From the NCBI GenBank assembly GCA_902577525.1, contig CACGZG010000010.1, positions 1 to 42,943 of the forward strand: 42,943 bases of DNA, in the 5' to 3' direction. Below the pieces are notes generated by a model. That model was not told the origin of the DNA. It was given only the letters and a program-made list of their open reading frames with translations, and searched no databases. This DNA is from an uncultured Pelagibacteraceae bacterium. Lineage in GTDB: Bacteria > Pseudomonadota > Alphaproteobacteria > Pelagibacterales > Pelagibacteraceae. A program made the translations under genes and the position numbers. Each line of letters begins with the position of its first letter. The stretch's first letter is position 1. Shown piece by piece: positions 26,783 through 32,713 of this stretch.

Positions 26783-27863
26783 AACAAAAAATCAAAAATA
26801 CCCTATCGTTATTGGAAATAATTTGACTAAAAAACTTTCAAATATTTTAAAGAAAAATTCAATAAATTTTAAACAGTGTTTTCTAGTTGTAGATAAAAAC
26901 GTTCCAAAAAAATTTATTAAAAATATTAAAAATTCTTTAAAAAATCATAAGGTTTTTATTCATATTTTTAATGCTAATGAAAAAAATAAAAATTTTAAAA
27001 GCGTGGATAATATTCTAGATTTATTACTTAAAAAAAATTTTTCAAGAGAAGATTGTCTAATTTCTGTTGGTGGTGGAATCACAGGTGACACAAGTGGTTT
27101 TGCTGCAAGTTTATTTAAAAGAGGAATAAAATTTATAAATATTCCTACCACCTTGTTGTCACAAGTGGACTCATCAATAGGAGGAAAAACTGGAGTGAAT
27201 ACTAAATATGGAAAAAATTTGATTGGAAGTTTTTATCAACCATGTATTGTTGTTTCAGATACTCAATTTCTTATGACATTACCAAGAAGAGAAATAATTT
27301 GTGGATATGGAGAAATACTAAAACATGCTATCATTAAAAATAAAAATTTTTTTTATTTCTTAAATAAGAAATTTAAAAAAATTTTAGATTTATCTCCTGG
27401 ATTTATTAACAAAGCAATTTATGAAAGCTGTAAAATAAAAATGAATGTAGTTGAGAAAGATGAGAAAGAAACAGGTTTAAGAAAAATTTTAAATTTTGGT
27501 CATACTTTTGCACATGCATACGAAGCAAGCATGGATTATAGTAAAAAATTAAACCATGGTGAGGCTGTTATACTTGGGATAAAAACTGTTCTTAATTTTA
27601 GTTATAAAAAAAATATTCTAAAAGAGAAAGAATATAAATTGATAACAAATCATATTGAAAAAAATAACTTAACCTTATCATTAAATAATTTCTTTAAGTC
27701 AAAAGATGTTAAAAAAATACTATCTTTTATGATTAAGGATAAAAAAAATAATTCTTCTAAAATAAGTCTAGTTCTTTTAAAAAAAATAGGATTACCTTTG
27801 TTCAACCAAGAATATTCAAAAAAGAATATAGAATTATTTTTAAAAAATTATTTAAGAAATTGA
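26757..27863 (+). CDS. aroB: 3-dehydroquinate synthase
   Basis: NAD- and metal-dependent cyclisation of DAHP to 3-dehydroquinate. The blocks GGGITGDTSGFAAS, RGIKFINIPTTLLSQVDSSI, GGKTGVNTKYGKNLIG, the KMNVVEKDEKETGLR metal/phosphate region, LNFGHTFAHA and LNHGEAV are typical. Length is 368 residues. The start lies in aroK, and the end overlaps the convergent bolA by 12 nt. Confidence 0.97.
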   Translation: MKTLKLIVKTKNQKYPIVIGNNLTKKLSNILKKNSINFKQCFLVVDKNVPKKFIKNIKNSLKNHKVFIHIFNANEKNKNFKSVDNILDLLLKKNFSREDCLISVGGGITGDTSGFAASLFKRGIKFINIPTTLLSQVDSSIGGKTGVNTKYGKNLIGSFYQPCIVVSDTQFLMTLPRREIICGYGEILKHAIIKNKNFFYFLNKKFKKILDLSPGFINKAIYESCKIKMNVVEKDEKETGLRKILNFGHTFAHAYEASMDYSKKLNHGEAVILGIKTVLNFSYKKNILKEKEYKLITNHIEKNNLTLSLNNFFKSKDVKKILSFMIKDKKNNSSKISLVLLKKIGLPLFNQEYSKKNIELFLKNYLRN

Positions 27864-28112
27864 GATTTGTATTGAATGAATATATTGTTTTAACTCTTCA
27901 TCTAAAACTCTATATATTTTTTTGTTACTTTGAATTTTATTCATTTTTTTCAGTTCGTTAGAAACTATTATTAATTTAAGATGAAATTTTCCTTTAATAT
28001 TCCCAGAATGATTTTTATGAAGAAATGATTTATCTTCAACACTTATACTTTCTATATTTAATTCATTTAGTAACTTTTTTTTTACAATTATAGTTAAATC
28101 ATTTATATCCAT
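27852..28112 (-). CDS. bolA: BolA-family protein
   Basis: An 86-residue BolA-fold protein, which in known cases partners monothiol glutaredoxins in iron-sulfur handling or acts in regulation. I take the ATG at 28112 (MDINDLTIIVKKKLL); a longer frame to 28190 covers the promoter and the divergent gene. The family H-rich and VSNELKKMNKIQSNKKIYRVL region is recognisable with KGKFHLKLIIVS. The start is 20 nt from the divergent J-protein start, with TATAAT just 10 nt upstream, so the message may be nearly leaderless. Confidence 0.88.
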   Translation of the reverse strand: MDINDLTIIVKKKLLNELNIESISVEDKSFLHKNHSGNIKGKFHLKLIIVSNELKKMNKIQSNKKIYRVLDEELKQYIHSIQISIS

Positions 28113-28132
28113 ATATATAACTATTATATAAC
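28113..28132. promoter_or_regulatory. Bidirectional bolA / J-protein promoter, nearly leaderless
   Basis: Only 20 nt separate the two divergent start codons. On the plus strand TATTAT (28122-28127) lies 5 nt before the ATG; on the minus strand TATAAT (28123-28128) lies 10 nt before the bolA ATG. The two -10 elements overlap. Predicted starts fall at or within a few bases of both ATGs. The -35 parts would lie in coding sequence and look weak. Confidence 0.5.
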
Positions 28133-28660
28133 ATGAAAAACATTTGTGACTGGAATAATTGTAAAGAAGTTGGTGAATATAAAGCTCCAATAGAAAAAGA
28201 TAATAGCAAAAAATTTAGGATGCTTTGTCTTGAACACGTGAAAGAGTTTAACAAAAACTGGAATTATTTTTCAGGGATGAATGATGAACAGGTTATTGAT
28301 TTTTTAAAATCTGATATGACATGGCACAAACCCACACAAAGCTTTAGTTCCTCAGATAATTTTTTTAAAGTTTTATGGAATACCACTTTAAAAGATGAAT
28401 TAGACAAAGAAAAAATAAATGGAGAATATAATCATATGCGTCAATTTAAATTTGACCATAAAGATATTAAAGCATTTGGAATATTGGGAGTTTCAGTTGG
28501 TTTAAAATGGAAAAGCATACAAGATAAATTCAAAACACTTGTGAAAAAATTTCACCCTGATATGAATTCTGGTAATAAAAAATATGAGGAAAAATTAAAA
28601 CTAATCACTTTAGCTTACACTCAACTTAAAAATACTTATAGGAAAAAAATTGACACCTAA
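28133..28660 (+). CDS. J-domain protein with N-terminal zinc-like motif
   Basis: A 175-residue co-chaperone-like protein. The N-terminus has C5-x4-C10 and C32-x2-H35 (CDWNNC, CLEH), a possible zinc site, followed by NYFSGM. The J domain is at the C-terminus: the [20 protein letters not shown] helix and the HPD motif at 141-143, which normally stimulates DnaK. It is not classical DnaJ. It overlaps cobS by 11 nt and is part of the bolA/J-protein/cobS/cobT set conserved in alphaproteobacteria, which suggests work with the AAA+ protein CobS. Confidence 0.88.
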
Positions 28661-29624
28661 CTTAAATTCTCAGCCTGACATTAAAGTATCAATTAAACAA
28701 ACCTTTGGAATTGATTCTGACATGGAGGTGGACGCTTTTTCAAAAAAAGGAGAATATGTTCCTGATATAGATAAAAATTATAAATTTGATAGAGACACAA
28801 CACTCGCAATAATCTCGGGTTTTGCCTTTAATAAAAGAGTTTTAGTTCAAGGTTTTCATGGAACAGGAAAATCAACACATATTGAACAAATTGCAGCTAG
28901 ATTGAATTGGCCGTGTATAAGAGTAAATCTTGACAGCCATATAAGTAGGATTGATTTAATTGGAAAAGATGCAATTACTTTAAAAGATGGAAAACAAATT
29001 ACACAATTTAATGAAGGTATATTACCTTGGTCAATTCAAAATCCAGTAGCTCTAGTTTTTGATGAATATGATGCAGGTAGACCTGATGTTATGTTTGTTA
29101 TTCAAAGAGTATTAGAAGCAGAGGGAAATTTTACATTATTAGACAAAAATAAAGTAATAAAACAAAATAAATTTTTCAGATTATTTGCAACCTCAAATAC
29201 GGTAGGTTTGGGTGACACTACTGGTTTATATCATGGAACGCAACAAATTAACCAAGGTCAAATGGATAGATGGAATATAGTTGCCACTTTAAATTATTTA
29301 AGTCTCGATAAAGAGATGGAAATAATTTTAGCAAAAAACAAATCTTATAATAATTCAAAAGGTAAAGAAAAGATTGCGAGTATGATTAAAGTTGCATCTT
29401 TAACGAGAAAAGGATTTGTAGCTGGTGATATTTCAACTGTAATGAGCCCAAGAACAGTTTTACATTGGGCTGAAAATTCAGAAATTTTTAAAGATACAGG
29501 ATATGCTTTTAGAGTAACTTTTTTAAATAAATGTGATGAAATTGAAAAAAATACTATTGCTGAATATTACCAAAGATGCTTTGGTGAAGAATTACCAGAG
29601 TCGCTGGCAAATATTCAGATTTAA
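28650..29624 (+). CDS. cobS: CobS-type AAA+ ATPase (cobaltochelatase small subunit family)
   Basis: A MoxR-like AAA+ ATPase, known as a motor subunit of the aerobic CobN-CobS-CobT cobalt chelatase. Walker A GFHGTGKS is at 68-75, Walker B VFDEYD at 136-141, then [19 protein letters not shown]. The TTG at 28650 gives [20 protein letters not shown], which matches the family N-terminus, so I keep it rather than the later ATG. At 324 residues it is full length. It overlaps the J-protein upstream and abuts cobT. No cobN or other cobalamin gene is in the window. Confidence 0.92.
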
Positions 29625-31433
29625 ATGAGTAATATTAATAAAGAAAAAAATCTTAAAGAAAAACTGCAACAAGCCTTGTCGTCTACAGAGCGAGTAATTT
29701 CTGGAGATTTTATCAATAAAGAGAAAGATAATGAAAATAAAAATTTAAAAAAATTTGATTTTTTTAATTTAGAAAATATAAACTCTAAAAGTGATTTTAT
29801 TAAAGCGAGAGCGTTGTCAGACTCCTCGGCTCTTAAAAAAAAATTTTCAAATGTAAATATTTATAAAAAAAATTTACCAACTAATACCTCTTGTAAATCT
29901 CTTTACGCTATTGCCGAAAAAATCCGTTATGAATGTTTGGGATCTAAAATGTTAAAAGGAATAAAAAAAAATCTCGATGAAAATTACAATCAAATTATTG
30001 AATTAAAAAGAAAGGATCAACTAAAAACTAAAGAAGATGTTCCAGTTGTTGAAGCTTTTGAGTTATATATGCTTAAAAAATTTCATAACATAAAATTAAA
30101 CTCACTAACAAAAAATATGTTAAATTTTTGGGAGAAAGACTTTGATCAGGCAATTGAAAATCACATAAATTTTCTCAAAGAAAAACTAGATTCACAAAAT
30201 GATTATTCTTCTAAATTTTCAGAAATTTTACAAAATATGGAAATTTTCCAAACTGAAGAAAATGATGAAAAAAATGATGATAATCATGAAAATGATCAGC
30301 AAAATCCGTCAAATAACGACCAAGAGAGTGAGTCAGAAGATAGAAAAGATGAAAATAAAGAGGAAGAAACTCAAGCTAATTTAGACTCTGATTATGATAT
30401 AGATCAATATAAATTAGATGAACAACTAGTTGATAATGACTCTGATAAGCAAAGTAATGAGCAAGTAATCCAAAAAAAGAGCATTGATAATATTAATTTA
30501 GATTACAAGATTTTCACAAAACAATATGATGAAATAACAAAAGCGGAAAATTTAGAGTCCCACAATGATATTTTAAAATTAAGGAAATCATTAGATCAGC
30601 AGCTGAGTGGTTTTCAAGATGTAATTACTAAACTCGCAAATAAACTTCAAAGAAAATTATTAGCCAAACAAAATAGATCGTGGGAATTTGATTTAGAAGA
30701 GGGTTTACTGGATAGTTCAAAATTACCTAGGGTAATAATGGATCCGTATAATTCGCTATCTTTTAAAAAAGAGAAAGATCTTGATTTTAAAGATACTGTT
30801 GTTACTTTATTAATCGATAACTCTGGTTCTATGAGAGGTAGACCAATTACTATTGCTGCAATCTGCGCAGATATTTTATCTAGAACACTTGAAAGATGTT
30901 CGGTAAAAGTTGAAGTGTTGGGCTTTACAACAAAAAATTGGAAAGGCGGAAAATGTAGGGAATTTTGGAACAAAAAAGGTAAGCCTCGAACACCTGGAAG
31001 ATTAAATGATCTTAGACATATAATTTATAAAAGTGCAGATACTCAATGGAGACAAGCAAAAAATAACTTGGGATTAATGCTTAAAGAAGGGCTACTTAAA
31101 GAAAATATTGATGGTGAAGCTATATCATGGGCATTTAATAGAATAAAAAAAAGAAAAGAAGAAAGAAAAATAATAATGGTCATTTCTGATGGAGCGCCTG
31201 TAGATGATTCAACTCTATCAGTAAATTCTGGAGACTTTTTAGAAAAACATTTAAAAAAAATTGTTAAATTTATAGAAGATAAGACTGAAATTGAGATACT
31301 AGCAATTGGTATTGGCCATGATGTCTCTAGATATTACAATCGAGCAATAAAAATAACAGATGTAAATGAGCTTGGTGATGTAATGATTTCACAATTAAGC
31401 GAATTGTTTGAAAAAAAAAATAAGTTACATTAA
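29625..31433 (+). CDS. cobT: CobT-type VWA protein (cobaltochelatase large-ring subunit family)
   Basis: The partner of CobS: a 602-residue protein with an N-terminal helical region, a very acidic Asp/Glu/Asn-rich linker (about residues 205-265), and a C-terminal von Willebrand A domain. The metal-ion-dependent adhesion site DNSGSM starts near residue 398, and the [15 protein letters not shown] block and [13 protein letters not shown] are CobT-type. It starts directly after cobS. Its end overlaps the convergent sensor kinase by 4 nt. A metal-chelatase or a more general AAA+/VWA chaperone role is possible. Confidence 0.92.
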
Positions 31434-32713
31434 ATTTTAATCAAGTCTTTATTATTCCATTTTATTGAGACTTCTGCTCCACTTCTGGTTTTAGAATTTC
31501 TACAATTAATAACAGCAAAATTTTTTTCAAGTAAAGTTTTTCCGATAAAAATACCTAAGCCTAATCCATCCTTGGTTCTATTATCACTTTTAAATGCTTT
31601 TAAATATGGTTCTCCAATTTTTGACAATATATCACTTGGATATCCGTCTCCATCATCTTCAATTACAACTTCAGTAAATTTATTATCACTTTTAAGAAAA
31701 ATGAATATCTTTTTTCTACAAAATTTATTTGCATTACCAATAAAATTTCTTAAGCCATATACAATTTCAATTGATTTTGTAATCTTTTTTGAATAAGAGT
31801 CTTGTTCAAAATTAAAGATGAATTCATTGTTGCTTGTTTCTTTGAAAGATGAAATTATTTCTTTAAGGTATTCTCTTATACTTAGATCTTCATCAATAAA
31901 ATCATCCTCTTCATTTGGATTTAAAGATAACTTTTTTAATATTTGGTTGCATCTTTCAACCTGACTTGAGAGTAATTCTATATCTTGAATTACATCTTTA
32001 TTATCTTTTAATTGTTTTGAGAGTTCTAAAGTAATAATTTTTATTGTTGATAGTGGTGTTCCAAGTGAATGAGCTGCAGCAGCTGCTTGTCCACCTAAAG
32101 ACAACATTTCGTGCTCTTTTGCCATCACTTCTTCCATTTTATTCAAAGCCTCTTTTCTTAATCTAGACTCTGCACCAAAAATTATTGCAAAATAATTTAA
32201 AAAAACTAGTGCGATTATAAGAGCAGTTGGTATTGAATAATAATAATGTTTGTCTACATGAAAGTGTTCATTTAAAGGATATGGTAAATCTTTTGAATAA
32301 AATGTAAGAAAAATAATCACTAATATAGTCGTTGATACTAACAGGATATTTGTTCTTAATCCCAGATTTGATGAGGCAAAAACACTTGGAATAATTAAAA
32401 AAATAACAAATGGATTTAAAATCCCCCCAGTCAGATAAATTAGAATTCCAAGTTGTGTTATGTCAGTTAGTAAAAAAAATAAAGCTGACCTATCTGATAA
32501 TTGAGTTTTTTGATAAACAAAAATAAGATATAAATTACTTAAGGCACCTAAAAAAATTACTAAATTTGAGATAAAAAAATTAAATTCAAACTTATAATAG
32601 AAATAAACAATATAAACTGATAATAATTGTCCGATTATACCAATCCATCTTAATGAAATGTAAGTGGATTTTTTTAAAGTATAAAATTTAGAAGTTTCAA
32701 AAAACTTCATCAT
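31430..32713 (-). CDS. RegB/PrrB/ActS-like redox sensor histidine kinase
   Basis: A membrane sensor kinase of 427 residues with about six transmembrane helices up to residue 180. The quinone-linked GGILNPF heptapeptide is at 96-102, the H-box [14 protein letters not shown] has H215, the redox-box cysteine C255 is in ERCNQIL, and the ATPase region has NANKF and GLGLGIF. In the relatives the H-box reads HELGTPL; here E is replaced by S. It follows gyrB with no gap (its ATG directly follows the gyrB stop). No response regulator is nearby. The family call is firm, the kinase activity less so. Confidence 0.88.

Follow-up and report, generated by a model that had tools for sequence, protein, structure and literature searches.

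A CobS-CobT pair kept without a detectable CobN in SAR11 and many other Alphaproteobacteria: a probable function outside B12 synthesis

Why would a SAR11 bacterium keep CobS and CobT, two subunits of the aerobic cobaltochelatase, when the third subunit CobN does not accompany them? The question is raised by a stretch of 42,943 nucleotides (G+C 27.8%), the window in what follows, from an uncultured Pelagibacteraceae bacterium (GCA_902577525.1, CACGZG010000010.1), which is contig 10 of a 1.14 Mb genome assembled in 30 contigs and 90.5% complete. On its plus strand a J-protein gene, cobS and cobT follow each other in a tight set (28133 to 31433) with intact motifs. A preliminary description, made from the sequence alone, had read the pair as complete and had noted that CobN and other cobalamin genes are absent from the window; it had suggested a MoxR/VWA-type chaperone for metal insertion into, or remodelling of, another protein. 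Based on family searches across this genome, its order and its class, we propose that CobST in many Alphaproteobacteria very probably has a function that depends neither on CobN nor on B12.

Both proteins belong to the families after which they were named. CobS (324 residues with a TTG start, 28650..29624, plus strand) is an AAA+ ATPase scoring 570.6 bits with NCBIfam TIGR01650, above the cut-off of 558.55, and it also passes the gathering scores of PF12556 and PF07728. CobT (602 residues, 29625..31433, plus strand) is composed of an N-terminal CobT domain (PF06213, E 2.7e-32, 112.8 bits), an acidic linker and a C-terminal VWA domain (PF11775, E 1.5e-94, 316.2 bits), both matches being above the gathering score. 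Among the sequences of the PDB, the window's proteins match CobS chains (E 1.5e-152) and a CobT chain (E 8.1e-155). The completeness claimed at the outset is borne out by the catalytic motifs, which are invariant in loci with and without matches to PF02514 (the CobN family) and CobH: the Walker B motif of CobS (D138-E-Y-D141, 29061..29072), residues G68, H70, G71, T72, G73, K74 and S75 of its Walker A motif (G68-F-H-G-T-G-K-S75, 28851..28874), and in CobT the metal ion-dependent adhesion site (MIDAS; D398-N-S-G-S402, 30816..30830) together with T435, T436 and D522. The locus thus encodes, in adjacent genes, an AAA+ protein with both Walker motifs and a VWA partner with a MIDAS, the arrangement of MoxR/VWA gene pairs.

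The missing subunit was searched for in the whole genome. PF02514, which covers BchH as well as CobN, has no match there, and neither has CobH (PF02570), a marker of corrin-ring synthesis; the absence of CobN described for the window thus extends to the assembled genome. In the order, PF02514 is matched in none of the 148 genomes sampled, and CobT_C, the C-terminal CobT family, is found in 142 of them (weakest E 2.1e-73). As PF02514 is unmatched in all 148 genomes, some of them 99-100% complete, we reject the idea that CobN is hidden in the missing tenth of this genome. The B12-binding family PF02310 is unmatched in the genome, and with the NrdJ model TIGR02504 the better piece reaches 216 bits, below the cut-off of 399.95, and probably represents another reductase class. 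Across the order, PF02310 is above its cut-off in 33 of 148 genomes (74 at E <= 0.001) and NrdJ in 17 (131 at E <= 0.001, the latter probably other reductases). No cobalamin riboswitch was found in the window at Rfam gathering scores, the only Rfam matches being three tRNAs. Since the defining subunit CobN was searched for and not found, we do not class the pair as a cobaltochelatase; it resembles a remodelling pair of the MoxR/VWA kind.

The preliminary description had treated this as a SAR11 matter. The assignment itself holds, because the set, i.e., a divergent BolA gene followed by J-protein, CobS and CobT, recurs in two genome records under the title Pelagibacteraceae, with 92% identity in CobS; the pattern, however, is class-wide. 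We searched the same 192 alphaproteobacterial genomes for each family (requested completeness at least 90%; the genome studied here is one of them). CobT_C is present in 154 (weakest E among those listed 3.3e-35), CobS in 153 (121 above the cut-off, one with only E 4.5e-4), PF02514 in 80 (one as a 236-residue fragment) and CobH in 70. When these are cross-tabulated, CobT occurs together with PF02514 and CobH in 67 genomes, with PF02514 only in 12 (some of which may have BchH only), with CobH only in 2 and with neither in 73; one genome has PF02514 and CobH without CobT, and 37 have none of the three. The control genome of Caulobacter vibrioides likewise matches CobS, CobT_C and the N-terminal CobT family, and has no match to PF02514. 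Among 28 genomes reached via titled CobS loci (28 of 80 loci; completeness not given), 12 are without PF02514, including Neoroseomonas eburnea, a metagenome-assembled genome (MAG) of Caulobacter sp. and both Pelagibacteraceae. In the Caulobacter sp. MAG the CobS locus contains the J-protein and BolA, and CobT was not found within 10.9 kb. The N-terminal CobT family is mainly alphaproteobacterial among 249 genomes sampled from the phylum, with 96 matches of which 10 lie outside the class, none of these above 84.7 bits; among the controls it matches Caulobacter only. Three MAGs whose titles name Gammaproteobacteria or the K189A clade contain a CobS 70-72% identical to that of the window with CobT adjoining; J-protein and BolA were not found at their loci, nor PF02514 in their genomes. 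Either lateral transfer or mislabelling of these MAGs may be behind this.

CobST is conserved irrespective of CobN. In a FastTree phylogeny built on concatenated CobS and CobT sequences of 149 genomes (78 with and 71 without PF02514), the presence of PF02514 changes at least 35 times, compared with 41-58 changes (mean 50) in 200 label shuffles, and 14 sister pairs differ in it. At invariance thresholds of 97% and 95%, 103 of 324 CobS positions and 89 of 602 CobT positions are invariant both in loci with PF02514 and CobH and in loci with neither; only 2 CobS and 4 CobT positions are 95% conserved in the former but below 80% in the latter. A separate CobST subfamily in lineages without CobN is consequently not supported: there are no fixed differences (largest divergence 0.31 of 1) and the labels are interleaved on the tree. 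The ratio of nonsynonymous to synonymous differences per site (pN/pS), in which the ranking alone counts because synonymous sites are near saturation, is lowest for CobS. Compared to a genome of the same genus it amounts to 0.067 for CobS, 0.126 for GyrB, 0.141 for the J-protein, 0.176 for CobT, 0.236 for RegB, 0.384 for AroB, 0.399 for BolA and 0.432 for AroK. With a genome of the same family, where RegB and GyrB were not found in the stretch compared, the values are 0.29 for CobS, 0.47 for CobT, 0.58 for both J-protein and BolA, 0.63 for AroB and 0.78 for AroK.

Even where CobN is present, CobST lies outside the cobalamin locus. Of the 79 genomes that have CobT as well as PF02514, 60 carry them on separate contigs, and in the 19 that have them on a shared contig the distance is never below 22 kb (CobT was placed by CobS in two of these genomes, and draft contigs limit the meaning of the 60). 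The surroundings of CobS were compared in 157 fetched loci plus the window, 149 of which contain CobS. The J-protein gene precedes CobS by no more than 1.5 kb on the same strand in 124 of these, CobT at most 500 bases downstream on the same strand in 131, and BolA divergently upstream in 111. The phyletic comparison that the preliminary description had proposed shows loci that are alike: J-protein, CobT and BolA stand beside CobS in 61, 62 and 53 of 69 loci without PF02514 and CobH, and in 53, 59 and 47 of 66 loci with both. Part of this linkage is inherited gene order, since the block extends further to AroB, CNNM and ribosomal protein L28, and at times to MeaB and methylmalonyl-CoA mutase.

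In the window, the divergent neighbour, not mentioned in the preliminary description, is a BolA-family protein of 86 residues (27852..28112, minus strand; PF01722, E 1.1e-14, scored on the longer TTG open reading frame 27852-28190), separated from the J-protein gene by 20 bases. On the other side, a RegB/PrrB/ActS-type redox-sensing histidine kinase (31430-32713, minus strand; NF033792 above cut-off) is convergent with cobT, its end overlapping the cobT stop by 4 bases, and beyond it on the minus strand follows GyrB, which was named from its sequence and not by a family search. Promoter-like sites in the window (18, with a shuffle mean of 23.5) are not in excess, and a terminator-like site was not found.

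The J-protein (175 residues, 28133..28660, plus strand) had been described as linked to the pair, its gene overlapping cobS, and the overlap is real: the two genes share 11 bases, starting with the TTG of cobS at 28650. Its zinc-like motif is conserved, with C5-x4-C10 and C32-x2-H35 as putative ligands (28145..28237, from first to last codon), each residue being present in 98-99% of 130 related loci. The J domain (PF00226, E 6.4e-11, residues 115-172) has its HPD motif at residues 141-143 (28553..28561), conserved in 99% of these loci. PF00226 is the sole Pfam family above cut-off, the N-terminal part having no such match; with a J domain and HPD, and without the middle or C-terminal domains of DnaJ, the protein is of class C. 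Its AlphaFold model has a mean pLDDT (predicted local distance difference test) of 78 and a pTM (predicted template modelling score) of 0.40. In a Foldseek search of the PDB the best match of the model is a DnaJ J domain (E 0.017), none reaches E <= 0.001, and the 50 matches shown are mainly J domains, with none seen for the zinc-finger part.

Association of this protein with CobST is thus frequent, as the preliminary description supposed, but it is not exclusive. A 17-row J alignment searched against the 192 class genomes finds 164 of them at E < 1e-30, including two of about 0.9 Mb, one of which is the genome with the weak CobS match; at E <= 0.001 it finds 191, the weak matches probably being ordinary J domains. 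At the stricter threshold the protein occurs in 142 of 154 genomes with CobT and in 22 of 38 without. The retention of the J-protein in genomes that lack CobT counts against a dedicated J-CobS-CobT complex, and we reject it as a dedicated subunit of CobST; it is a linked but broader core protein. BolA adjoins it in 3 of the 15 genomes examined among these 22 (some loci end near the J-protein gene), and in 2 of the 5 genomes that have CobT and carry the J-protein away from the CobS locus. A scan of viral contigs with the J-protein gave two J-domain matches.

We propose the following model, which we consider somewhat more probable than not as a whole. CobS and CobT would constitute a MoxR/VWA-type motor that uses ATP for remodelling, in which CobS is presumably an AAA+ ring. 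CobT may hold a client by its MIDAS-bearing VWA domain, after which ATP hydrolysis would open or refold this client, by analogy with other pairs of this type. In relatives that make B12, CobN would be one such client, giving the cobaltochelatase. For SAR11, and for roughly half of the sampled Alphaproteobacteria with CobT, where CobN was not found, we infer that the motor acts on another protein. Probably this other task is both more ancient and more widespread, and CobN is a client added to it. As the client, a protein with a metal centre that needs opening for assembly or repair seems likeliest; on its own, this part is tentative and we would put it clearly short of an even chance, since it is drawn from remarks on Caulobacter cobT, the neighbouring BolA and analogy. 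The J-protein probably works with DnaK beside the CobST pathway. Of the chaperone role suggested in the preliminary description, the independence from CobN is strongly supported and the fold class fits, while metal insertion stays a conjecture. In its broadest form, the model describes CobST as a core alphaproteobacterial remodelling machine whose main ancestral client was not CobN; the cobaltochelatase would have arisen, or would persist, by CobN making use of it, and SAR11 would depend on it, most likely for maturation or repair of a metal enzyme. For this broad form we regard the balance as even.

Could the pair be doing nothing at all, either as the remnant of a B12 pathway that was lost or because its annotation is an artefact? 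The lack of CobN and CobH matches in its own genome would agree with this, yet the retention of CobT_C throughout the order, the invariant catalytic motifs, a pN/pS of CobS below that of GyrB and the persistence of CobST while PF02514 switched 35 times or more make it hardly credible. A role in B12 use instead of synthesis, i.e., loading, repair or remodelling of B12 enzymes such as methylmalonyl-CoA mutase, has some genomic context in its favour. Downstream of CobT, MeaB is found in 35 and methylmalonyl-CoA mutase in 15 of 152 loci (lower bounds, 137 of the 152 having 5 kb of room), and this could hint at B12 use. In a sister family of 18 genomes, an open reading frame of 716-734 residues with PF02310 is found on the strand opposite to CobT_C, at a distance of 1.7-2.1 kb, in 17, and NrdJ is above its cut-off in 17 genomes; this family therefore probably uses B12, though PF02514 was not found in the order. 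Ribosomal protein L28, however, is a nearer and commoner neighbour downstream of CobT (67 of 152 loci), which suggests plain inherited gene order, and across the order PF02310 and NrdJ are above cut-off far less often than CobT_C is found. Because the genome studied here has CobST without a PF02310 match and without NrdJ above its cut-off, B12 use is not taken as the general explanation, and we judge it quite unlikely.

Two further readings deserve more weight. BolA, with glutaredoxin, is a supplier of iron-sulfur clusters, and both copper and EDTA (ethylenediaminetetraacetic acid) stress can hurt iron-sulfur enzymes. J-protein, CobS, CobT and BolA might make up one dedicated machine for iron-sulfur (or haem) maturation, in which BolA/glutaredoxin gives the cluster while J/DnaK and CobST open the recipient. 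The recurring order of these genes, with and without PF02514, speaks for it, as does a report (PMC12004947) in which Caulobacter cobT, named as a predicted B12 gene, is described as a gene of copper stress with an effect on fitness in the presence of EDTA; according to the abstract of that paper, EDTA lowers intracellular iron. Whether this effect on fitness is positive or negative is not said there, however. The J-protein is kept in many genomes without CobT and seldom has BolA beside it in those examined (some loci being cut by contig ends), and the unrelated AroB, CNNM and L28 stay near as well, so that linkage alone is weak evidence. We hold such a dedicated machine to be rather improbable. 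Much the same degree of doubt, if slightly less, attaches to a client without any metal, e.g., a complex to be disassembled, as midasin does in ribosome maturation. Among relatives with solved structures, CobS matches the AAA modules of midasin (E 1.7e-23) better than CbbQ (E 4.2e-5) or NorQ (E 2.2e-4), the pairing of AAA+ and MIDAS is common to both, and many phages have CobS relatives (459 of 50,697 records). The published remarks on Caulobacter cobT, on the other hand, concern copper and EDTA, and neighbouring genes alone are no evidence.

Several observations also weigh against the model of a remodelling motor with a client other than CobN. No client of CobST was found, and no recognised client gene adjoins CobST here. 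The idea of a metal client draws on one published sentence, a neighbouring gene and an analogy, and in the available part of PMC8224329, one source cited for the copper link, cobT is not mentioned. A transposon library of Caulobacter gave a score for cobT, which suggests that the gene is dispensable there in rich medium. Completeness of the genome studied here is only 90.5%, and a match to CobT_C is lacking in 6 of the 148 order genomes, all drafts of 20-40 contigs, and in 38 of the 192 class genomes, 37 of them at 2.3 Mb or less. The CobT of the window scores 627.7 bits where TIGR01651 requires 759.05, and is thus classed by sequence as a CobT-family (Pfam) protein adjoining CobS and not as a TIGR01651 equivalog. 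The specificity of PF11775 and TIGR01650 is incomplete, as both are also matched in the control Bacillus subtilis. Finally, the CobST branch without PF02514 is the longer one in 10 of the 14 sister pairs (p 0.18), pointing to at most a slight relaxation of selection after loss of CobN.

If the model of a motor with another client is true, SAR11, which is among the most abundant marine organisms, relies on CobST for an undescribed step. The retention of CobT in 142 of 148 genomes of an order with small genomes, and a CobS more constrained than GyrB in one comparison, indicate that this step would be important. Parts of the picture have already been published: the available part of PMC8123684 considers that cobNST annotations may lack specificity where most corrin genes are missing from a bacterium. 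The extent and the gene context were not found described; no published statement on class-wide CobST without CobN or on its J/BolA context was found in a search that mostly did not cover subscription literature, which leaves novelty unproven. PMC7857532 deals with Pseudomonas cobN and has no bearing on this. In what is accessible of them, other studies take cobS/cobT as a sign of B12 synthesis, both for phages (PMC11288001) and for genomes (PMC4303638, where 'cobT' may be an unrelated enzyme of the same name). With CobT accompanied by neither PF02514 nor CobH in 73 of 192 genomes, such a reading is unsupported there. The question is testable in Caulobacter, a genetically tractable relative that has CobS and CobT, with PF02514 unmatched in the control genome.

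With the aerobic cobaltochelatase CobN-CobS-CobT (EC 6.6.1.2) the pair shares the CobS and CobT families, as seen in Pfam and in the sequence matches to the PDB, and the catalytic motifs, but it lacks a CobN or CobH match and its CobT remains below the TIGR01651 cut-off. NorQ-NorD and CbbQ-CbbO, the activators of nitric oxide reductase and Rubisco, respectively, combine an AAA+ protein of the same broad type with a VWA partner with a MIDAS; their sequence similarity to CobST is low, and client genes adjoin them whereas none is recognised beside CobST. The J-protein resembles those of class C in having a J domain with HPD as its sole Pfam domain above cut-off, and differs by its conserved N-terminal CCCH motif. 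Phage relatives fall in the same PHROG families as the window's CobS and CobT (phrog_249 'porphyrin biosynthesis', phrog_1576 and phrog_17276), yet the window pair is of the chromosomal alphaproteobacterial type, and all phage CobS relatives are below 60% identity to it (best listed 33.8%). The phage records with CobS are mostly from cyanophages and several are annotated as porphyrin or cobalamin synthesis; phage papers (PMC7029224, PMC11288001), in the parts available, count CobS/CobT among genes of B12 or of nucleotides. Given the retention of CobST without CobN, the porphyrin and cobalamin labels on these relatives deserve doubt. Anti-phage defence was considered for the window pair and rejected, PADLOC giving only weak IetA matches of the AAA domain (best E 1e-6). 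A parallel in kind is ChlI/ChlD without ChlH, where, in the accessible part of PMC9227772, small and medium subunits are likewise kept without the large subunit and their function in that state is described as unexplored. That case concerns a different pair in a few species, whereas CobS/CobT without CobN spans a class.

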